Shown here: positions 5,429 through 16,706 of the stretch, one piece after another | Layout of the letters: the number at the start of each line of letters is the position of its first letter | Numbering within the stretch: the first letter of the stretch is position 1 | Assembly: GCF_900215655.1 (NCBI RefSeq) | Contig: NZ_OBEN01000009.1 | Coordinates: 1-63,276, forward strand | Direction: 5' to 3' | DNA length: 63,276 nucleotides | Source of the DNA: Hydrogenobacter hydrogenophilus | Lineage (GTDB): Bacteria; Aquificota; Aquificia; Aquificales; Aquificaceae | The notes under the pieces: generated by a model | What the model was told of the DNA's origin: nothing | The model's input: the letters and a program-made list of their open reading frames with translations, nothing else | The model's database searches: none | Program-made: the position numbers and the translations under genes

Positions 5429-6154
5429 ATGTGTAGAGAGTGTGGTTGTTCAGTCAATCATCAGCACGAACACAAACACGAAGAGACAAAGACCTTGGAA
5501 GTATTCACCAAGATCCTTGAAGCCAATGACAGGCAGGCACAGGAAAACAGAGAACATTTTGAAGAATATGGAGTTTATTGCATAAACCTGATGAGTTCTC
5601 CCGGTGCTGGGAAGACGAGCCTCTTGGAGAAAACTATAGAACTTTTAGGAAACGAGCTAAGGATAGGGGTCATAGAAGGAGATCTGGAAACCAACAGGGA
5701 TGCAGAGAGGATAAAAGCGAAGGGTGCACCAGCTTATCAGATCACTACAGGGAGCGCTTGCCATCTTGATGCCTCAATGGTTCACGATGGAATACATCAT
5801 CTTCCTTTAGAAGGCCTTGATGTGGTCTTTGTGGAGAATGTGGGGAACCTTGTCTGTCCAGCCTCTTACGATGTGGGAGCACACCTCAATGTGGTGCTCC
5901 TTTCCGTCACGGAAGGGGATGATAAGCCAGAGAAGTATCCGGTGATGTTTAGGTCTGCAGACCTTATGTTGATAACCAAGATAGACCTTCTTCCTTATGT
6001 GGATTTCTCCGTTGAGAGGGCACTCAGTAGCGCGAGGAAGATAAAGCCAAATATGGACTTTATGATGTTGTCCACAAAAACGGGAGAAGGGCTTGAGGAC
6101 TGGATAGATTACTTAAAGTTTAAAGTAAAGTTCTACAGGAAGGCACTGAAATGA
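5429..6154 (+). CDS. hypB: Hydrogenase nickel-incorporation GTPase HypB
   Basis: 241 aa, preceded by a GGAGG Shine-Dalgarno. The N-terminus MCRECGC is the HypB high-affinity metal site, followed by a short His run (HQHEHKH, residues 11-17). Walker A SSPGAGKTS at 56-64, the metal-binding SACHLDASMVH around 110, and TKIDL as the base-recognition motif. HypB inserts nickel into [NiFe] hydrogenase large subunits with HypA. It leads an operon with the cytosolic hydrogenase genes, and its TGA overlaps the next ATG (ATGA). Confidence 0.97.
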   Translation: MCRECGCSVNHQHEHKHEETKTLEVFTKILEANDRQAQENREHFEEYGVYCINLMSSPGAGKTSLLEKTIELLGNELRIGVIEGDLETNRDAERIKAKGAPAYQITTGSACHLDASMVHDGIHHLPLEGLDVVFVENVGNLVCPASYDVGAHLNVVLLSVTEGDDKPEKYPVMFRSADLMLITKIDLLPYVDFSVERALSSARKIKPNMDFMMLSTKTGEGLEDWIDYLKFKVKFYRKALK

Positions 6155-7008
6155 ATGTACTTTGGCTCCAGAGACTTTCGTGTTGCGGAAATACTCATTC
6201 TCTTTTGAACTGTGACACTTTTAACTCCCTTCTCAAAGAAGTAAACTTTCTTTTTCACCCATCTCTTTCCATAGAAAACGAGGAAGAGATTATAAACAAA
6301 GTGCTTGAGGGTAGTTTAAAGCTTGACCTTTTTATCCTTGAGGGTGCGGTAAGGATTAATGACGAGAAGGTGAAGGAGCTTTGTTATACCGCAAACTATG
6401 TGATGGCAGTAGGCAGTTGTGCGGTTTACGGCAACATACCAGCCTTGAAAGATAACTATGTGTGTGGACTTCAGTATAGATTTAAAGAGAAGGGAGGGTT
6501 GTTGGGAGAAGATTTTGTTTCTAAAGGAGGGCTTCCGGTTATCAATCTATCTGGCTGTCCAGCGCATCCCGAATGGATAGTAGGTGTTATCAGATCGCTT
6601 GCAAGAGGCATAAAACCTGCGTTGGACAGCTGGGGCAGACCCAAAGAGTTTTACTCAAGCCTTACCCACTGGGGATGTACAAGAAACGAGTACTTTGAAT
6701 GGAAGATAGAACCCGAAAGCTTAGGCTCAAAAAAGGGATGTCTATTTTATAACTACGGATGCAGAGGTCCCATGACTTACTCTTCTTGCAACACTATCCT
6801 CTGGAACGGAGTGAATTCAAAAACAAGAGCAGGCACACCCTGTTTTGGTTGTACTGAGTTTGACTTTCCAAGGGTGGGGCTTTTTGAAACAAAGCAGTTT
6901 GCTGGCTTGCCTGCGGAACTACCCATAGGTGTCTCAAAGAGAGGCTACATAATGCTTTCTGGCATTGCAAAGATGTTTGCACCTGAGAGGTTGAAAGTTG
7001 AAGATTGA
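6151..7008 (+). CDS. Cytosolic [NiFe] hydrogenase small subunit, group 2-like, unusual proximal-cluster motif
   Basis: 285 aa, no signal peptide and no C-terminal anchor, so cytosolic like group 2 (HupS/HupU-type) enzymes. It carries iron-sulfur electron relays. Cluster residues seen: GSCAVYG, SGCPAHP, then HWGCTRNE, YNYGCRGP, SSCN and GTPCFGC. The first motif is odd: where relatives have GCGGCTMSLL this has SCCGNTHSLL, so Cys12 is added and Asn14 replaces the second proximal-cluster cysteine. In Aquifex a soluble hydrogenase III is thought to feed carbon fixation; a similar role here is inference. A sensory (HupUV-type) function is possible. Confidence 0.9.
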   Translation: MNVLWLQRLSCCGNTHSLLNCDTFNSLLKEVNFLFHPSLSIENEEEIINKVLEGSLKLDLFILEGAVRINDEKVKELCYTANYVMAVGSCAVYGNIPALKDNYVCGLQYRFKEKGGLLGEDFVSKGGLPVINLSGCPAHPEWIVGVIRSLARGIKPALDSWGRPKEFYSSLTHWGCTRNEYFEWKIEPESLGSKKGCLFYNYGCRGPMTYSSCNTILWNGVNSKTRAGTPCFGCTEFDFPRVGLFETKQFAGLPAELPIGVSKRGYIMLSGIAKMFAPERLKVED

Positions 7009-8314
7009 GAAAAGGCTTCTTTCAAGAGTAGAAGGTACAGCAGAACTTGAACTTATATGGGGAAACGGCTATGTACAGGATGTCAAGATAAAAATACCCA
7101 GTTCAAGAGGCATAGAGAAGGTACTTGAAGGAAGACCCTTTATGGACGCTCTTGTAATAACGCCAAGAGTGTGTGGTATATGTGGACATGCCCATCTTAT
7201 GGCTTGTGTAAGAGCCTTAGAGGATGCTGTAGGGAATGTAAAGCTTACCCAAAAGGCTAAACTGGTGAGGGACATAACGCTTACCGTGGAAATGATACAG
7301 AACCACATAAAGTGGTTTTACCTGTTCGTAATGCCAGACTTTATAAGGCTTGGAGAAAAAATTGAGGATTTTGAACCCTTCAAAGGTAAAAAGTGGAAGA
7401 AAGCTATAAATGTATCATCAAATGTGGTAAAAGTAATAGCAATATTTGGTGGTCAGTGGCCCCACTCTTCTTACGCTGTTCCTGGAGGCATAACTTCAAA
7501 CTTTACTACCTCAGATATTTCAAGAGCATTATCCGTAGTAGAAAGTGTTGTCGAATTTTTTCTTGAGGATATGGTGGGTATGGATGAGGAAAGTTTTCTT
7601 TCTGCAAGGAGCGCCGGTTTATGGGAAGAACTAAAGGGAGATATAAGACTATTTGTAAACTTGTGCATCAAACACAAACTTGAAAAGGTAGGATCTTCCT
7701 ATGGAAGACTGCTTACTGGAGGTGAGGTATTTCCTTGCATAAGTCCGGGTCATTTTACTGGAGAAAAAAAACTGTGTTCCCTTAATCTTTCAAAAATAAA
7801 AGAAGTTGTTAGTCCCTCCTATTCCAGTGTAAAAGTGGTAAGATACAATGGGCTTCCCTACGAAACTGGACCTCTATCGCGCCAATTTCTTTCTGGTAAT
7901 CCCTTCATCAAAAGACTTTACAAGGCATACAAAGATAGCTACATGACAAGAGTATTGGCTCGTCTTCTTGAGGTTTGGGAACTACTGGATGCCATCAGAG
8001 AAAAGCTCCGCGGGCTATATGCTTTAATAAAGGAAGCTTCTTACCATCCTTCTTATCAAAAGGCAGACAAGGTATTTGGAGAAGGAATAGGCGTGGTTGA
8101 GGCTGCAAGAGGTACGCTTATACACCGTGTACATATAAGCAAAGGCATTATAACTGAGTACCACATCATAACTCCTTCTGTGTGGAACTTGGGTCCTAGA
8201 TGTGAAAAGTACTTAGGCGTAGCAGAAAAAGCAATTATCGGTTTAGAAGATCCCTTACATGCAGAGATGGTCTTAAGAAGTTTTGATGTCTGTTCTGTAT
8301 GCACAACGCACTAA
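6998..8314 (+). CDS. Cytosolic [NiFe] hydrogenase large subunit without C-terminal extension
   Basis: 438 aa from a TTG at 6998, overlapping the small-subunit gene by 11 nt, with GAGAGG upstream. It binds the NiFe(CN)2CO site: RVCGICGHAH at 57-66 (C59, C62) and DVCSVCTTH at 430-438 (C432, C435). The protein ends exactly at that last His. Most [NiFe] large subunits continue and are trimmed by a HyaD/HypD-type protease after this His; sensor hydrogenases (HupV/HoxC) lack the tail, as here. The motif has Val431 where Pro is usual. Proteolytic maturation is therefore not needed. Confidence 0.92.
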   Translation: MKIEKRLLSRVEGTAELELIWGNGYVQDVKIKIPSSRGIEKVLEGRPFMDALVITPRVCGICGHAHLMACVRALEDAVGNVKLTQKAKLVRDITLTVEMIQNHIKWFYLFVMPDFIRLGEKIEDFEPFKGKKWKKAINVSSNVVKVIAIFGGQWPHSSYAVPGGITSNFTTSDISRALSVVESVVEFFLEDMVGMDEESFLSARSAGLWEELKGDIRLFVNLCIKHKLEKVGSSYGRLLTGGEVFPCISPGHFTGEKKLCSLNLSKIKEVVSPSYSSVKVVRYNGLPYETGPLSRQFLSGNPFIKRLYKAYKDSYMTRVLARLLEVWELLDAIREKLRGLYALIKEASYHPSYQKADKVFGEGIGVVEAARGTLIHRVHISKGIITEYHIITPSVWNLGPRCEKYLGVAEKAIIGLEDPLHAEMVLRSFDVCSVCTTH

Positions 8315-8327
8315 AAGGAGGTGGCTA

Positions 8328-9329
8328 ATGAGAAGAATTCTTCTATCGCAAGGTGGTGGTGGAGAGGAAACATGGAAACTCATAAAGGATGTATTTTTAA
8401 AACACTTTTCCAACGAACATTTAGAAAAGCTTGAAGATGCCACATTGCTTGAGATAGATTCTAAGATAGCTTTTACCACAGATTCTTTCACAGTAAACCC
8501 TCTCTTTTTTAAAGGAGGAAACATCGGAAAGCTTGCGGTTGCCGGTACAGTAAACGACCTGGCAGTGATGGGAGCAAAGCCTCTTTATATGTCAGTAGGA
8601 TTTATCATAGAAGAAGGTTTTCCTTACGAGGACCTTGAAAGCATTGTGGTAAGTATGAAGGAAGAAGCAAAAACCTCAGGTGTACTGATAGTTGCTGGTG
8701 ATACAAAAGTAGTACCCAAAGGAACTGCAGATGGGATCTTTATAAACACTTCTGGCATAGGCAAAGTGCTTTACGAAGGTTTGTCCTGTAGGAACATAAA
8801 GGAAGGAGACCTCATTATAGTGTCTGGAGGTATAGGTGAACATGGTGCGTGCATACTTGCCCAAAGGGAGGGTATATATATGGACATAGAGCTTGAGAGT
8901 GATTGTAGAAGCCTCTGGAATCTTGTAGAGAGGATAATCTCTTCTAATGCGGAAATACATGCTATGAGAGATCCTACAAGAGGTGGTCTTTCCGCGGTTC
9001 TTCACGAATGGGCAAGAAGTTCCCAAGTTTCCTTCTTAGTACAAGAAGAAAATATACCAATAAAGGAACCCGTTTTGGGACTTTGTGATCTTTTGGGTCT
9101 TGAACCTTATCACCTTGCCTCTGAGGGAAGGCTTGTTGTAGCAGTCCCTGAAAAAGAAGCAAAGAAGGTACTTGAAATAATAAAGGAACACCCTGATGGA
9201 AGAGATGCACAGATAATAGGCAGAGCTATTCCTGCAGAAGGACAACCCAAGGTTATTCTTAAAACTTCTTACGGTACACACAGAGTGCTTGATCCCCCTG
9301 CAGGTGAGCTTTTACCGAGGATATGCTAA
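8328..9329 (+). CDS. hypE: Hydrogenase maturation protein HypE
   Basis: 333 aa from the ATG at 8328, which follows the strong Shine-Dalgarno AAGGAGGTGG; an upstream in-frame ATG at 8283 lies inside the large-subunit gene and is rejected. It is a PurM/AIR-synthase-fold ATPase that converts the HypF-carbamoylated C-terminal cysteine to a thiocyanate, source of the CN ligands. The end PRIC carries that cysteine. DxxTV (DSFTVNPLFFKGG), GGLSAVLHEWA and REGIYMD-type segments fit the family. Confidence 0.96.
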   Translation: MRRILLSQGGGGEETWKLIKDVFLKHFSNEHLEKLEDATLLEIDSKIAFTTDSFTVNPLFFKGGNIGKLAVAGTVNDLAVMGAKPLYMSVGFIIEEGFPYEDLESIVVSMKEEAKTSGVLIVAGDTKVVPKGTADGIFINTSGIGKVLYEGLSCRNIKEGDLIIVSGGIGEHGACILAQREGIYMDIELESDCRSLWNLVERIISSNAEIHAMRDPTRGGLSAVLHEWARSSQVSFLVQEENIPIKEPVLGLCDLLGLEPYHLASEGRLVVAVPEKEAKKVLEIIKEHPDGRDAQIIGRAIPAEGQPKVILKTSYGTHRVLDPPAGELLPRIC

Positions 9330-9330
9330 C

Positions 9331-9687
9331 ATGCACGAGTTTTCCGTAGTACAGAGCCTGATGGAACTTATAGAGAAGTATGCGGAGGAAAATAGAGCAA
9401 AAAAGGTCCTTAAGGTTGTTGTAAGCATAGGCGCACTTTCAGGTATAGAGCCACACCTTCTTGAGCTTGCCTTCAACACTTTCAAAGAAGGTACCATAGC
9501 CGAAAGTGCCCTCTTAGTTATTGAAAAGGAGAAACTAAAGGTTAAGTGTCAGGAGTGTGGTGCAGAAGATGAAAAAGATGAGCTCAACGCACTATGCCCT
9601 TTCTGTGGATCGCTGAATACAGAGATCATCTCTGGACAGGAGATGCTTCTTAAAAGCCTTGAGTTAGAGTGTGAAGATGAGACTTAA
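9331..9687 (+). CDS. hypA: Hydrogenase nickel metallochaperone HypA
   Basis: 118 aa from the ATG at 9331 (MHEFSVVQSLMELIE), one base after the hypE stop. M1-H2-E3 is the invariant nickel-binding start, and a structural zinc site is formed by CQECG and CPFCGS. It delivers nickel with HypB. An apparent longer frame from 9289 lies inside hypE and would bury the H2 site, so it is rejected. The 3' end overlaps hypF. Confidence 0.96.
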   Translation: MHEFSVVQSLMELIEKYAEENRAKKVLKVVVSIGALSGIEPHLLELAFNTFKEGTIAESALLVIEKEKLKVKCQECGAEDEKDELNALCPFCGSLNTEIISGQEMLLKSLELECEDET

Positions 9688-11905
9688 AATAAACCTAAAA
9701 GGTGCGGTTCAAGGTGTGGGTTTTAGACCCTTCGTGTTTCGCCTTGCGTCTGAGTTAGGATTGAAGGGATGGATAATAAATGACTCTTCCGGTGTGGAGA
9801 TAGAAGTTGAAGGAGATGAGACTATTTTACAAACCTTTTTGATACGGTTGAACGCAGAGAAGCCCCCCTTAGCTCACATATACTCACAGGAAGTGGAGTA
9901 CTTAGAAGATGTAGGGTACTCAAGCTTTGAGATAAGAGAAAGCAAAGGAGAAGGTAGGAAGGAAGTTTTAGTACTGCCAGATATAGCCACATGCGACGAG
10001 TGCCTGAAAGAGCTTTTTGATCCGCAAGACAAGAGATACATGTATCCCTTTATAAACTGTACCAACTGCGGACCAAGGTTCACCATAATAGAAAAACTTC
10101 CCTACGATAGACCCAACACAAGTATGAAGGTTTTTCCCATGTGTGAAGACTGTCTTAGGGAATACGAAGACCCTGTCAACAGAAGATTCCACGCACAACC
10201 CAACGCTTGTCATGTTTGCGGTCCTTGGGTAAGCCTCTACGCAAGTGATGGAAAATTACTGGCAGAAAGAGGTGATGCTATAAACCTCCTTATAAAAGCT
10301 CTGAGAGATGGTCTCATCGTTGCTGTGAAAGGTATAGGAGGCTTTCATCTCATGTGCGATGCCACAAGAGAAGAACCAGTAAAACTTCTCAGAGATAGGA
10401 AAAGAAGGTTAGAAAAACCTTTTGCTGTCATGTTTAAGGATATGGAGCAAGTAAGTGAGTATGCGGAACCAACAGAACTTGAAAAGGCACTACTCCTATC
10501 CCCAGAAAGACCAATAGTTCTAATAAAAAAACGAAAGGAACTTGCACCTTCCGTAGCACCAGGGCTTAAAAGAGTTGGAGCATTTTTACCTTATTCACCT
10601 CTTCATCACATAATTCTAAAAGCTCTTGATTTTCCTGTGGTTGCAACCTCTGGTAATCTTTCTGACGAACCTATAGTCAAAGATAATGAAGAGGCTCTAA
10701 GAAAACTATCCTTATTTGCGGATATGATCCTCGTGCATAACAGAGATATAAAAAGAAGGTGCGATGATTCGGTTTTTAAGGTGGTAGGTGGGATACCACA
10801 GCCCATTAGGAGATCAAGGGGGTACGCTCCGCTTCCCGTAAAGCTATCTTTCAAACTTCCCAAAAAGATCCTCGCCGTAGGTGGTATGCTAAAGAACACT
10901 TTTGCTATAGGTTTTGATGATACGGTAATTCTAAGTCAACATGTGGGTGATGTGGAAAATTTAGAAACGCAGAAAAGTTTTGAAGGTATGGTATTTGACC
11001 TCATGACTCTTTACGAATTCAAACCGGAGGTCGTAGTGTGCGACCTCCATCCCAGATACGAAACCACAAGGTGGGCAGAATACTTTTCTCAAAAAGAAAA
11101 CATACCTCTCATCAAAGTCCAGCACCATTATGCTCACATACTCTCGTGTATGGCAGAAAGAGGTATAAACGGTAAGGTGTTAGGAATAGCTTGGGATGGC
11201 ACTGGGTACGGTGATGACGGAACACTTTGGGGTGGGGAGTTTATGATATGTGATTATCAGGGTTATGAAAGGGTTTTTTACATGAAACCTTTCAGACTCA
11301 TAGGTGGAGAGAAAGCGGTCAAAGAGCCAAGAAGGATGGCTCTATCTTTACTATTTGAGCTTTACGGAAAAGATGTCTTTGATATGTCCCTACCAGCAGT
11401 TAGTTCCTTCACGAACAGTGGGCTTGTAAACCTCTACACAGCATGGTCTAAAGGCATAAACTCCCCTTACTCAAGCTCAGTAGGGAGGCTATTTGATGCT
11501 GTTGCTTCCCTTTTGAACATAAAGCAAACTATATCTTACGAAGGACAAGCAGCGATGATGCTCGAAGACCTTTACGATCCATCTATTAAGGACCATTATC
11601 CTTACTTCATTGAAGAAAAACACATAAACTGGAAGCCTACCATATTGGCTATTATTGAAGACAGAGAAAAAGAAAAAATACCTTCTAGGTTTATAAACAC
11701 ATTGGCTAAAATATGTCTTGATGTGTCTATCAGGATGGATGTTGAACAGGTTTGTTTATCTGGTGGAGTGATGCAAAACGATCCCTTGGTAAGCAAGATA
11801 AAAGAACTTCTAAGTAATAGAGGTTTCAAAGTTTATACACACCAAAGAGTCCCAGCTAACGATGGAGGGCTGTGTTTAGGACAGGCTGTTTATGGCTCCC
11901 TTTGA
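9677..11905 (+). CDS. hypF: Carbamoyltransferase HypF
   Basis: 742 aa from the ATG at 9677; a GTG two codons upstream (9671) is an alternative. Domains in order: acylphosphatase-like (GAVQGVGFRPFV, residues about 8-20), paired zinc fingers (CDECL..CTNCG and CEDCL..CHVCG, about 105-190), YrdC-like domain (about 200-375) and Kae1-like carbamoyltransferase (HHYAHILSC, WDGTGYGDDGTLWGGE). It makes the CN ligands with HypE. No hypC or hypD lies in this window although both are required partners. Converges on the hupH-like gene with 16 nt overlap. Confidence 0.96.
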   Translation: MRLKINLKGAVQGVGFRPFVFRLASELGLKGWIINDSSGVEIEVEGDETILQTFLIRLNAEKPPLAHIYSQEVEYLEDVGYSSFEIRESKGEGRKEVLVLPDIATCDECLKELFDPQDKRYMYPFINCTNCGPRFTIIEKLPYDRPNTSMKVFPMCEDCLREYEDPVNRRFHAQPNACHVCGPWVSLYASDGKLLAERGDAINLLIKALRDGLIVAVKGIGGFHLMCDATREEPVKLLRDRKRRLEKPFAVMFKDMEQVSEYAEPTELEKALLLSPERPIVLIKKRKELAPSVAPGLKRVGAFLPYSPLHHIILKALDFPVVATSGNLSDEPIVKDNEEALRKLSLFADMILVHNRDIKRRCDDSVFKVVGGIPQPIRRSRGYAPLPVKLSFKLPKKILAVGGMLKNTFAIGFDDTVILSQHVGDVENLETQKSFEGMVFDLMTLYEFKPEVVVCDLHPRYETTRWAEYFSQKENIPLIKVQHHYAHILSCMAERGINGKVLGIAWDGTGYGDDGTLWGGEFMICDYQGYERVFYMKPFRLIGGEKAVKEPRRMALSLLFELYGKDVFDMSLPAVSSFTNSGLVNLYTAWSKGINSPYSSSVGRLFDAVASLLNIKQTISYEGQAAMMLEDLYDPSIKDHYPYFIEEKHINWKPTILAIIEDREKEKIPSRFINTLAKICLDVSIRMDVEQVCLSGGVMQNDPLVSKIKELLSNRGFKVYTHQRVPANDGGLCLGQAVYGSL

Positions 11906-12267
11906 AACAAGACCTTCAATCTCTCTTCAAGAAGTTTTATAGACTCTTCTATATCTTCCTCTTGTGAAGATGCTAAACGCGGAAATATTGTTATTTCAAT
12001 GGTTTCCAAGATGGGTTTATTGTCCCTGTCAAAGAACACCCCTATCCAAACGCCGTTTATCCCCGTCTCTCTCCATTCTGCAGGCTGAGTTTTGGAATCA
12101 AGCCTTATCCTTACCTGTCCTTCTCCAAGTGTATCTAATATTGCAATTCTGTCTTCCTCAGTTAAGGGTAGTTTGTTTATGTATATAATGTGCTCTTCGC
12201 CTTTTTCGTAAAGGTCTTTGAGAGCTTGAAGTATTTCGTTGAGTATGGCTGGAGCGTTCATAAGCAT
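11890..12267 (-). CDS. HupH/HyaF-like hydrogenase maturation protein (short)
   Basis: 125 aa from the ATG at 12267, chosen because GGAGG sits seven bases upstream; a second ATG at 12261 forms an ATGA overlap and is also possible. The segment RLDSKTQPAEWRETGINGVW matches the HupH C-terminal domain (W.ET...GVW), associated with small-subunit maturation of uptake hydrogenases. It is much shorter than proteobacterial HupH (about 280 aa), so it is essentially the C-terminal domain alone. Last gene of the membrane-bound hydrogenase operon. Confidence 0.75.
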   Translation of the reverse strand: MLMNAPAILNEILQALKDLYEKGEEHIIYINKLPLTEEDRIAILDTLGEGQVRIRLDSKTQPAEWRETGINGVWIGVFFDRDNKPILETIEITIFPRLASSQEEDIEESIKLLEERLKVLFQREP

Positions 12268-12569
12268 AGTAAAGCCTCCACATATTCGTTCCAAGCCTTT
12301 ATACCCTCAAGCTTCACCACTTCTTTGCCTTCTTTAAAAATTACTACCGCAGGAACGGGATAATCTTTAAGAAGGTCTGGGTAATTGTCTACATTTACGC
12401 TATAGAACTTAAACTTACTGCCAAAACTCTTTTCCATCTCAGGAACTACAATATCCGTGTCAAAAATCTCTCTTATCTTTTCCTTTTTCAATTCACTGCG
12501 TACATAAAGAACGAAAGTTTCTTTGCCATCAACCAAAGCTCTAAGCTCTTGCCGGCTTAACTCTTTCAT
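12258..12569 (-). CDS. Thioredoxin-like hydrogenase accessory protein (HyaE/HupG type)
   Basis: 103 aa. Predicted thioredoxin fold: FVLYVR strand, a helix, FYSVNVDNYPDLLKDYPVPAVV with the cis-Pro segment, then VVKLEGIKAW. The CxxC of true thioredoxins is missing, as in HyaE/HupG chaperones, which bind the Tat signal of the hydrogenase small subunit. Position between the hupD-type protease and the hupH-like gene supports this role. Overlaps hupD by 29 nt and the hupH-like gene by 10 nt. Confidence 0.72.
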   Translation of the reverse strand: MKELSRQELRALVDGKETFVLYVRSELKKEKIREIFDTDIVVPEMEKSFGSKFKFYSVNVDNYPDLLKDYPVPAVVIFKEGKEVVKLEGIKAWNEYVEALLCL

Positions 12570-13032
12570 AAGTTATACCCCATTCTCTTAACTGTTCTAA
12601 AACTTTATCTATCAGATCCTGCATCCTTCTTTTAATTGAGTATGAAAGCTCTACAGAAAGGTCTAAACTCTCTGGCTCTATACCTATCATAACCACCTCT
12701 TTAGGTTTTTTACCCAAAAGGTCTGCAAGTGCCAGAACCTCCTGAAAACCAAGCTCGTGTGCGGATACCTTTTTTCTGAAGTACGCCTTTACCTCCTCAT
12801 CTTTTAGCTTATAAAGGGTGCCTGGAGGTCCTCCCCCAAGCACCGCATCAACTACTAACAGCCTCTCAAAGCCTTCCATAAAGTAAAGCAGGTCTATACC
12901 GAGCGTTCCACCATCCATGAGTTCCACACCATCAGAGAAGGAGTAGTTCTTCCTAAGCTCTTCTACCACCCTTACTCCAACGCCTTCGTCGGACAGAAGT
13001 ATGTTCCCTATACCCAGCACGAGCACCTTCAT
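12541..13032 (-). CDS. hupD: Hydrogenase maturation endopeptidase (HyaD/HupD)
   Basis: 163 aa. The start VLVLGIGNILLSDEGVGVR has the nickel-sensing Glu; DGGTLGIDLL and VVDAVLGGGPPGT carry the conserved Asp; SAHELG the His. HyaD-type proteases cut the C-terminal tail off the large subunit after Ni insertion. Its client here should be the 633-aa large subunit just upstream (21-residue tail), since the cytosolic one has no tail. Overlaps hupC by 4 nt. Confidence 0.95.
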   Translation of the reverse strand: MKVLVLGIGNILLSDEGVGVRVVEELRKNYSFSDGVELMDGGTLGIDLLYFMEGFERLLVVDAVLGGGPPGTLYKLKDEEVKAYFRKKVSAHELGFQEVLALADLLGKKPKEVVMIGIEPESLDLSVELSYSIKRRMQDLIDKVLEQLREWGITYERVKPARA

Positions 13033-13733
13033 TCTTCTACATCCTTTATATCAACGGGTTCCCTTTCAAACACCTTATAACCGCTGAACATGGAAGAAAG
13101 CTCACCGTTCTTCTTTATGGCTTCCTCTCTTATGACAAAGTAAACATGAAGCACTGCAAAGATGATTATGAGCCACGCTATCCAGTGATGCCACATGTGC
13201 ACCATAAACTCACCACCTAAGAAACCTAAAAGCCATCCAAACAGAGAAGACCAAAAGCTACCGGGCTTGGACATTCCGTACATGGCAAAACCTGTTGCTA
13301 TCATGAAGAATATCATAAAGTAAACGATGGGATAGACCGTTCTTGCACATGCGTTTCTTATGTACTCGTGTCCTTCTGTATCCCTCATGATAAAGGCATA
13401 CTTTAGTGTGATCTCCTTCAGGCTCGTCCAGTAATCTTTCTTCCAAACAGCAGGAAAGACCAACCTGTCCCTCTTATTAAACACAGCGATTATTATCCTA
13501 AAAAGAAAGGAAGCCAGAAGAATATACCCAGCTATGAAGTGGACTTTCCTGATGAAGTCCATGGTAAGTCCTTCTCTGTAAGCGTATGTAGCTTCTACGC
13601 CTGTAGGACCCAAGAAGAAGGGATTTCCTATGTAAAGTCCAGTAAAGAAGAGAACCATTATGGTTAAAAAGTTTACCCAGTGCCACAACCTCAACCCTGG
13701 GCTAAATATGTAAATCTTCTTTGCTTCTATCAT
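13029..13733 (-). CDS. hupC: Membrane-bound hydrogenase cytochrome b subunit (HyaC/HupC)
   Basis: 234 aa integral membrane di-heme cytochrome b that takes electrons from the hydrogenase small subunit to quinone. Four or five hydrophobic segments: residues about 17-36, 64-85, 131-152, 176-200. Likely heme ligands include H18 (LRLWHWVNF), H65 (KVHFIAGY) and the HMWHHW / LHVYF histidines near the C-terminus. It follows the large-subunit gene directly in the expected order S-L-C. Confidence 0.93.
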   Translation of the reverse strand: MIEAKKIYIFSPGLRLWHWVNFLTIMVLFFTGLYIGNPFFLGPTGVEATYAYREGLTMDFIRKVHFIAGYILLASFLFRIIIAVFNKRDRLVFPAVWKKDYWTSLKEITLKYAFIMRDTEGHEYIRNACARTVYPIVYFMIFFMIATGFAMYGMSKPGSFWSSLFGWLLGFLGGEFMVHMWHHWIAWLIIIFAVLHVYFVIREEAIKKNGELSSMFSGYKVFEREPVDIKDVEE

Positions 13734-13746
13734 AGCCTATACCTCC

Positions 13747-15648
13747 TTAATAGCACACATTGGCGCCCTGCACTTTGACGCTTACTATCTCTTTCCCTTC
13801 TGTATCGTAAATATGTGTAGAACATGCAAGACATGGATCAAAGGAGTGAATACCTCTGAGAACCTCAAGGGGTTTGTCTACAACTTTAACGGGTGTGTCC
13901 TTCATGCACTCTTCAAAGGCACCCTGTCCTCCCATGGGATCCCTCGCCCCACCGTTCCATGTGGTGGGAACAACGCACTGATAGTTTGCTATCTTGCCAT
14001 CTTTTATTACTACCCAGTGTCCTAAGGCTCCCCGTGGTGCATCAGTTATACCAACGCCTTTTGCCTCCTTTGGCCATGTAGAAGGGTCCCACTTTTCCAT
14101 GTTTGCAACCGCTGTATCTCCTGCCTTTATGTTATCGTAGAGCTTTTTCAGGAAGTAGAGGTTAGCAGTAGCACCTAACTGAGCCTCAAGTCCTCTTGCT
14201 GCTGTTCTTCCTACAGTGGTAGGTAACCATACATGAGGGGGTAAATCAAGCACTTTTGAGACTGTGTCTATCTGTTTTATCACCATCTCATCTATCCAGC
14301 TGGGTTTTATATGTCCTTGCTTTACTGCAGTATAAACTACTATGTACCTTGCCAGCGGACCCACCTCGCAGGGCTTTCCTCTCCATCTTGGGGATTTTAT
14401 CCACGAGTACTTACCCTTTTCGTCAAGATACTTCCACTGAGTCTTAGTTCCTTCCTTGGGTCCCGTGTAGTTGGGTTCTGTTATGCCGTCCCAAGGATGG
14501 AGTCCTTTAGTTTCGTCAGGATACTTGTACCAAGAGTGGGCTACATACTCCTGTATCACATTGGGATCTGCAAAGTCCTTTCCTACCATGGGATAGTATT
14601 TAGCCTTATCAACACCTTCTGCAAAGTCTTCCACAACGCCGTTGCAATGGTAAAGTATCTTGTTATGATAGTCTCCCGTCTTTATACCTCTGTAAGGCTC
14701 GTCAGGAAACTCACCGTACCCGATCACCCTTTTCTTTGCAAGTCCACCGCCGTAAACCTGTCCCTTCTGTACATATATGTGTCCTATAGCCAGAAGGTCT
14801 ATAAGATAAAAGAGATTTACCGCTTCTACTTGTGTGTATATGGCATCTTCAACCACTGCGAGCCTTTCTGTGTTTATAGGTGCGTTCATGTCGTTCATAG
14901 ATATGGAACAGGTCATTCCGCCTACCAGATAGTGAGGATGTGGATTTTTACCACCGAAAACCACCTGAGGTATAAAGAGCTCCCTCTGAACATCAAGCAT
15001 GTTAAGATAGTGAGCTACTGCCATGAGATGTACCTCAGGAGGTAAGAGTTTGTAGTCCGGATGGTCCCACCAGTGCGCAGCGAAAATTCCAAGCTGTCCA
15101 CTTTCCACTATCTTCTTTATCTTTTCCTGAAAAGCTCTGTAATATCCCGGTGTAGCCTTGGGAAACTTTTTTGGATAGGCTCTGTGACCCAAGAAATCAG
15201 GCATGACTTCTGCAATAGCTCCGTATTTTTCTAAGAGCTGGTTCTGTAAAACCGCAGTCTGAACTGGATCCGCTTTAAGAGCCTCTACAGGAGAAACCCA
15301 GTCAAGAGCATGAAGGTGGTAAAAGTGTACCAAGTGATCGTGTACCTGCAAACTGCCGTACATGATGTTCCTTATATAGTTAGCATTTTTGGGAATTTGA
15401 ATCTCAAGGGCATCTTCTATGCAACGCACAGAGGCGAGCGCATGTATAGATGTACACACACCGCATATCCTCTGAGCAAAAGCCCACGCGTCCCGTGGGT
15501 CTCTTCCGCGCAGGATAAGCTCAATACCTCTCCACATGGTACCCGAGGATACAGCATCCTGCACTTTACCCGTTTTTTCGTCTACAATGACCTCGATCCT
15601 GAGATGCCCTTCAATTCTTGTTACAGGGTCAACTACCACCCTTGCCAT
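13747..15648 (-). CDS. hupL: Membrane-bound [NiFe] uptake hydrogenase large subunit, group 1
   Basis: 633 aa. RICGVCTSIHA near 61-70 (C62, C65, H69) and DPCLACSTH at 604-612 (C606, C609) hold the NiFe site. Twenty-one residues follow His612 (IYDTEG...ANVCY), to be removed by HupD. It contains insertions typical of longer group 1 enzymes. Exported by hitch-hiking on the Tat signal of the small subunit and works at the periplasmic face, splitting H2. SD GAGG precedes the ATG. Confidence 0.97.
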   Translation of the reverse strand: MARVVVDPVTRIEGHLRIEVIVDEKTGKVQDAVSSGTMWRGIELILRGRDPRDAWAFAQRICGVCTSIHALASVRCIEDALEIQIPKNANYIRNIMYGSLQVHDHLVHFYHLHALDWVSPVEALKADPVQTAVLQNQLLEKYGAIAEVMPDFLGHRAYPKKFPKATPGYYRAFQEKIKKIVESGQLGIFAAHWWDHPDYKLLPPEVHLMAVAHYLNMLDVQRELFIPQVVFGGKNPHPHYLVGGMTCSISMNDMNAPINTERLAVVEDAIYTQVEAVNLFYLIDLLAIGHIYVQKGQVYGGGLAKKRVIGYGEFPDEPYRGIKTGDYHNKILYHCNGVVEDFAEGVDKAKYYPMVGKDFADPNVIQEYVAHSWYKYPDETKGLHPWDGITEPNYTGPKEGTKTQWKYLDEKGKYSWIKSPRWRGKPCEVGPLARYIVVYTAVKQGHIKPSWIDEMVIKQIDTVSKVLDLPPHVWLPTTVGRTAARGLEAQLGATANLYFLKKLYDNIKAGDTAVANMEKWDPSTWPKEAKGVGITDAPRGALGHWVVIKDGKIANYQCVVPTTWNGGARDPMGGQGAFEECMKDTPVKVVDKPLEVLRGIHSFDPCLACSTHIYDTEGKEIVSVKVQGANVCY

Positions 15649-15650
15649 GT

Positions 15651-16706
15651 TTATTTACCTCCTCTGTTTTTTATCTTAGAAAGCACACCGTGAGCAACCG
15701 CACCTGCTGCAGCGGCAGCCACAGCCACCGCACCTACCTTGTCAGGGCTTGCTTCTACATTAGGTAAAGGTATTGTAGTAAGTCTTTGGTAGAAGGGTCC
15801 TTTGTCCCAAAAGTCTTCCTCTGCACAACCTATACAACCGTGGCCAGCCTGTATTGGATAAGAAAGACCGTTGTACCAACGGATGTTTCCACAGGAGTTA
15901 TAAGTAGTTGGTCCTCTGCATCCTACTTTATAAAGGCACCACCCTTTCTTAGCGCCATCATCGTCAAATCTCTCTACAAACTGACCTGCGTTGAAGAATG
16001 CTCTTCTGTAGCAAGTGTCGTGTATGCGATTGCCATAGAACTGCTTGGGTCTTCCCTGAGAATCTAAAGGAGGTATAGCATCAAAAAGAACAAGATACAT
16101 AATAACGCCCGTCATTACCTCTGCAATGGGAGGACAGCCAGGAACTTTTATGATGGGTTTGTCCGTTATAACCTTGTGTATGGGGACAGCGGTGGTAGGG
16201 TTTGGCTTTGCAGCTTGTACGCATCCCCAACTGGCACAAGAACCCCAAGCGATAACAGCCTTTGCTCCCTTTGCAGACTCCTTGAGGTTCTCAAGGAAAG
16301 CTCTCCCTCCTACTACGCAGTACATACCATCCTCACCCAGCGGAGGGTTTCCTTCAACAGCAAGGATGTAATTCCCCCAGTACTTTTTTATGATCTCCTC
16401 CCTGTGCCTTTCAAGAGCTTCTCCTGCAGCAGCAGAAAGTGTATCATCGTACTCAAGGGATATCATGGAAAGCACCACATCAGAAGCCAGAGGTGTTGCA
16501 GACCTTATAAAAGATTCAGAACAACAGGTACATTCAAGTCCGTGTATCCACAAAACAGGCACTCTCGGTTTTGTTTCTAAAGCCCTAACAACCTGCGGTA
16601 TCATGGAAGGAGAAAGCCCCATCATGCCCGTTATGGTGGTTGCAAATTTCAAAAAGTCCCTTCTGCTCACACCGTGCCTTTTAAAAGCTTCCCAAAAGGT
16701 TTCCAT
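15651..16706 (-). CDS. hupS: Membrane-bound [NiFe] hydrogenase small subunit, oxygen-tolerant type
   Basis: 351 aa. Tat signal SRRDFLK at 14-20 with hydrophobic stretch to about 43, and an Ala/Val-rich C-terminal anchor (about 322-340) before a basic tail. The proximal cluster motif is ECTCCSES (C59, C61, C62) and GSCASWGC supplies two more cysteines: the six-Cys set known for the [4Fe-3S] cluster of oxygen-tolerant group 1 hydrogenases such as E. coli Hyd-1. Starts the operon hupS-L-C-D-trx-hupH; SD AAGGAGGT. Confidence 0.97.

Follow-up and report, generated by a model that had tools for sequence, protein, structure and literature searches.

A pair of [NiFe]-hydrogenase genes lies in the hyp operon of Hydrogenobacter hydrogenophilus (Aquificaceae, genome 1.6 Mb) and, placed by the small-subunit tree and the literature rather than by the HydDB classifier, it encodes a cytosolic enzyme of group 2d that corresponds in Hydrogenobacter to A. 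aeolicus hydrogenase III. Judged on sequence, this is a known family with a new sequence; the two features picked out by the first-pass annotation, an asparagine (Asn14) at the second proximal-cluster ligand position and a large subunit lacking the C-terminal tail, are ordinary features of group 2d. They look more like those of a high-potential H2-oxidising enzyme than those of an H2 sensor.

The gene pair, its operon and its family

Coordinates within the window (the whole 63,276-nucleotide stretch of DNA that was analysed) are given in Table 1. The large subunit starts at a TTG at 6998, overlapping the small-subunit stop. hypB lies upstream of the pair and hypE, hypA and hypF downstream on the same strand, and the operon contains only the small- and large-subunit (S-L) genes and hyp genes, both here and in near relatives. 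The order hypB-S-L-hypE-hypA-hypF, which upholds the earlier description of a pair embedded in a hyp operon and made with the maturation machinery, recurs in relatives L034, L036, L038 and L039. Since other Aquificota carry the S-L pair without hyp neighbours, and the Campylobacterota carry it upstream of a group 1 operon, the hyp embedding is local to part of the Aquificaceae and is not a trait of group 2d.

Table 1. Positions in the window of the hydrogenase pair, its sequence features and the hyp genes
Feature	Position	Strand	Evidence
hypB	5429..6154	+	TIGR00073 297.7 bits, above cut-off; stop overlaps small-subunit ATG
group 2d [NiFe]-hydrogenase small subunit	6151..7008	+	open frame, 285 aa, without Tat signal
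proximal-cluster motif C11-C12-G13-N14, N14 in place of second ligand Cys	6181..6192	+	sequence
C90, proximal-cluster ligand	6418..6420	+	invariant in small-subunit alignment
C136, proximal-cluster ligand	6556..6558	+	invariant in small-subunit alignment
H173, distal-cluster His ligand	6667..6669	+	small-subunit alignment tallies
group 2d large subunit	6998..8314	+	open frame, 438 aa, PF00374, without C-terminal extension
L2 motif DVCSVCTTH, C-terminus of primary product	8285..8311	+	sequence
hypE	8328..9329	+	TIGR02124 461 bits
hypA	9331..9687	+	TIGR00100 above cut-off
hypF	9671..11905	+	TIGR00143 840 bits

Other hydrogenase genes were also seen in this genome. hypD is on a separate contig from the hypB-EAF operon (G000:C8:23351-24424). 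Facing the hyp operon on the minus strand of the window (11890-16706) is a group 1 hydrogenase that is Tat-exported and has additional cysteines at the proximal site (CTCC, GSCASWGC), together with cytochrome b, a HyaD protease and HyaE- and HupH-like genes; the HyaD protease is part of this group 1 operon and not of the S-L operon. A Huc-type (group 2a) operon (G000:C13:3011-10636, L123) encodes a tailed large subunit, a HycI-family protease, and TPR, NifU-Rieske and NHL-repeat proteins; two DUF1641 genes lie upstream of it in divergent orientation.

The small subunit was aligned with relatives (57 sequences in all, the HucS row taken from the HMMER alignment), the group labels of the comparison sequences being assigned from gene context and the tree, not by the HydDB classifier. 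The comparison set covers groups 1, 2a, 2b and 2d and one group 2c member (Ideonella L118). Many of the sequences came from a scan of the collection with two patterns around the medial cluster; counts at the proximal site are therefore free of search bias, and conservation of the medial cysteines is partly by construction. In the resulting tree the 35 group 2d rows, from Aquificota and Campylobacterota, form a single clade (SH-aLRT 98), and group 2a (SH-aLRT 99) and group 2b (SH-aLRT 100) both stand apart from it. The window small subunit is 0.14 from L005, and its closest named relative is a Hydrogenobacter MAG (small subunits 89% identical). It has no Tat signal and ends near residue 285, as is the rule in group 2d; the earlier view of a cytosolic enzyme is upheld. 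No notable difference separates the pair from the named members of the group (A. aeolicus hydrogenase III, H. thermophilus Hup2 and Campylobacterota HuaSL/HupSL); all share the clade, the cytosolic location, Asn14, the distal His, the absent tail and Val or Leu in L2. The hyp-operon embedding is common to Hydrogenobacter relatives, and Cys12 is the common variant among the nearest relatives only.

Asn14 and the iron-sulfur chain

The small subunit reads MNVLWLQRLSCCGNTHSLLN, with C11, C12, G13 and N14, and in the alignment N14 stands where the CxxC motif of groups 1 and 2b has its second Cys. Asn is found at position 14 in 35/35 sequences of group 2d and in 13 of the 14 from group 2a, among them M. 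smegmatis HucS with its CxGN motif, the other being Asp; the residue is Asp in the single group 2c sequence, and Cys in all 5 of group 2b and in the group 1 enzyme of this genome. The proximal change, described at first as unexpected, is thus what groups 2a and 2d normally show, and in the cryo-EM structure of Huc the corresponding cluster is [3Fe-4S]. Asn at this site had been described earlier for group 2a, the 2016 wording being that it possibly ligates a [4Fe-4S] cluster (PMC5364354), which would count against a proximal [3Fe-4S] cluster in group 2d if it held there; for Huc, density, EPR and the identity of the fourth residue later led to a [3Fe-4S] assignment for all three clusters (PMC10017518). 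For group 2d, then, Asn14 itself is established and the suggestion of a non-standard proximal cluster stands to that extent, its type being predicted from the ligands to be [3Fe-4S], as in Huc.

A base error at a former Cys14 is ruled out by the stretch CCGNTH, which is encoded in 21/112 genomes of the order by many different sets of synonymous codons, and by the invariance of Asn14 in group 2d. There is no other CxxC in the small-subunit N-terminus. Nor can Cys12 be a shifted ligand taking the place of Cys14, as had been supposed: position 12 is Cys in 14, Asn in 15, Ser in 3 and Gly in 3 of the 35 group 2d sequences, so that within C-C-G-N it is Asn14 that is fixed and not Cys12. MBH-type extra cysteines, which would indicate a [4Fe-3S] cluster, were also rejected, as group 2d has Asn or Gly at position 95, the site of the extra Cys in the aligned group 1 enzyme of the same genome.

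Huc is the closest solved structure for both subunits: HucS is the best PDB match of the small subunit (E=1.5e-68) and HucL the nearest structure to the large subunit (TM 0.90 by query length). At the medial cluster group 2d has Lys (35/35), as does Huc, and at the distal cluster it has His (35/35), where group 2a has Gln (14/14). Because group 2d has the proximal Asn and medial Lys of Huc yet retains the distal His that Huc has lost, the chain is inferred to run from a [3Fe-4S] proximal cluster through a [3Fe-4S] medial cluster to a His-ligated [4Fe-4S] distal cluster. HucS holds menaquinone with two tyrosines, Tyr229 and Tyr301 (PMC10017518), whose equivalents in group 2d are Tyr200 (34/35) and Tyr266 (35/35). 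Their support for a quinone as acceptor would be modest, since Tyr200 is found in this genome's group 1 enzyme as well. At the Asn14, medial Lys, distal His, Tyr266 and Tyr200 sites group 2b has Cys, Cys, His, Phe and Glu. The AlphaFold model of the small subunit is confident in its N-terminal half and poor beyond residue 170, with low confidence over residues 170-259, and no geometry of the cluster pocket or the quinone site was drawn from it.

The C-terminus of the large subunit

The large subunit ends ...RSFDVCSVCTTH and is followed directly by TAA (8312-8314); it does stop at the His of DVCSVCTTH, with Val replacing Pro, as first read. The missing tail is fixed: all 31 of the 31 group 2d large subunits end at L2, the Pro being replaced by Val in 24, Leu in 6 and Ile in 1, and in a phylum-wide search nearly all full-length matches lay in short frames that extend to the query's final residue. 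A tail is present in the group 2a and 2c enzymes examined, and wherever this was checked a protease gene lies near them; this genome's Huc-type enzyme carries a tail and comes with a protease of its own. Group 2b has no tail and keeps the L2 Pro. In a literature search, the absence of the tail in group 2d was not treated in any paper found.

The tailed enzymes examined retain the terminal L2 His. In group 2d the terminal residue is K, R, Q or Y in L013, L017, L021, L030, L033, L046, L060 and L117, of which the Hydrogenobaculum sequences L030, L033 and L046 end in Y (CASCVSY). One group 2d large-subunit match (G021:C28:1602-2903) has an internal TGA, from a gene that may be broken or from an assembly error.

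On these sequences the absence of a tail is not by itself the mark of a sensor, because group 2b joins the tailed group 2c enzyme, rather than group 2d, in the small-subunit tree, a quick one that carries a long-branch warning.

Function of the group 2d enzyme

By analogy with Huc, the group 2d pair is probably an H2-oxidising enzyme whose acceptor, itself putative, would have a potential well above that of ferredoxin. H2 would be split at an ordinary Ni-Fe site, complete with its four Ni/Fe cysteines, active-site Arg and L1 His. The proximal cluster, which would have C11, C90 and C136 as its sole ligands, and the medial cluster, with three Cys and a Lys at the fourth position, would both be [3Fe-4S], and electrons would cross this raised-potential chain and the His-ligated distal [4Fe-4S] cluster to the acceptor, most likely a quinone, or else some other cytosolic partner that would dock at the distal end. 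Since the large subunit would be synthesised at its mature length, HypA/HypB would insert nickel and HypC-F would deliver Fe(CN)2CO with no need of a protease step, and translation within the hyp operon would tie the supply of enzyme to the maturation machinery. A bulky gas gate, Ile61/Phe110, predicts insensitivity to O2; these residues correspond, by numbering read from the HucL alignment, to HucL Ile64 and Leu112, which were tested in the Huc gas-channel simulations (PMC10017518). The gate is I/F in 22/31 and I/Y in 7/31 group 2d sequences, and I/F also in group 2b.

The likeness to Huc (M. smegmatis HucSLM, group 2a), which catalyses with an onset of about -80 to -160 mV (PMC10017518), lies in the Asn at the second proximal position, the medial Lys and the two quinone-site tyrosines. 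Huc, however, has Gln for the distal His and has the HucM scaffold, where the window pair has H173 and no HucM-like gene adjoins the group 2d genes. The group 2a enzymes examined differ further in that they are tailed, carry Ser or Ala in L2 and have a gas gate with Leu or Ile. The distal His in place of Huc's Gln and the lack of an adjoining HucM-like gene count against the Huc-like reading; a main uptake role is not favoured by the difficult detection of the protein in extracts of A. aeolicus (PMC10052474) or by the decrease of the A. butzleri genes with H2 (PMC12286921).

It is unlikely that the pair is an H2 sensor of the HupUV/HoxBC kind, controlling hydrogenase genes, towards which the first-pass annotation had leaned. 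The regulatory hydrogenases (RH) HoxBC/HupUV of group 2b resemble the pair in lacking the tail, in their distal His and in the bulky Ile/Phe gas gate, a feature of the RH; low abundance in A. aeolicus (PMC10052474) and the regulatory role that HydDB holds possible would also suit a sensor. Four group 2b features were tested on the window pair, taking the RH clusters and the L1 Gln from published work (PMC5665086); only the absence of the tail is shared, and the cluster cysteines, the L1 Gln and a linked kinase are missing. Group 2b, with three [4Fe-4S] clusters in the RH, keeps four proximal and four medial Cys, and group 2d neither; L1 is CGICGHAH here but CGICSVSQ, with Gln for the L1 His, in 4/4 group 2b sequences. 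Group 2b further differs in its L2 Pro and in Glu and Phe at the sites of Tyr200 and Tyr266, and the C-terminus of the window small subunit is shorter than that of HoxB. While HoxBC/HupUV have an adjacent histidine kinase, none like HoxJ was found in adjoining genes in near relatives, and in this genome a HoxJ query matched nothing beyond kinase domains. The diguanylate-cyclase-linked group 2c enzyme (Ideonella L118) shares a replaced proximal Cys (Asp), the medial Lys, the distal His and the I/F gate, but differs in its tail, adjacent protease, L2 Pro and linked diguanylate cyclase/phosphodiesterase gene.

Improbable, too, is a role in feeding the reductive TCA cycle with low-potential electrons, in the form of NAD(P)H or reduced ferredoxin. 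Published proposals have often given this role to A. aeolicus hydrogenase III and the related Campylobacterota enzymes (PMC10052474, PMC4149538, PMC12780486); group 2d is cytosolic and occurs in organisms using that cycle, and HydDB allows a role in carbon fixation. Yet two of the three clusters are predicted to be [3Fe-4S], and no flavin or ferredoxin partner subunit was recognised in the group 2d operon of the window or its near relatives. Further, besides the poor detection in A. aeolicus extracts, S. denitrificans (Sulfurimonas denitrificans) has no soluble H2-uptake activity despite transcription of the genes (PMC12780486). The variable terminal residue of some relatives, the TGA in the G021 match and the lack of group 2d genes in many Aquificaceae genomes might point to a degenerate or low-activity enzyme that is being lost, with Asn14 as the sign of it. 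This is very hard to credit when the Ni-Fe ligands, the active-site Arg and all the cluster ligands are retained across two phyla and Huc works efficiently with that very Asn (PMC10017518).

For group 2d HydDB lists two possible functions, reductant for carbon fixation or regulation, and the ligand pattern amounts to a testable prediction against both: proximal and medial clusters of raised potential would make ferredoxin a poor fit as acceptor, and a sensing role is disfavoured because every group 2b signature save the missing tail is lacking. It is tentatively proposed that group 2d has a chain of its own ([3Fe-4S], [3Fe-4S], His-ligated [4Fe-4S]) in a protease-independent S-L pair that passes electrons from H2 into a quinone or another high-potential acceptor in the cell. 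If this is true, the long-standing proposal that group 2d supplies low-potential electrons to the reductive TCA cycle would be wrong.
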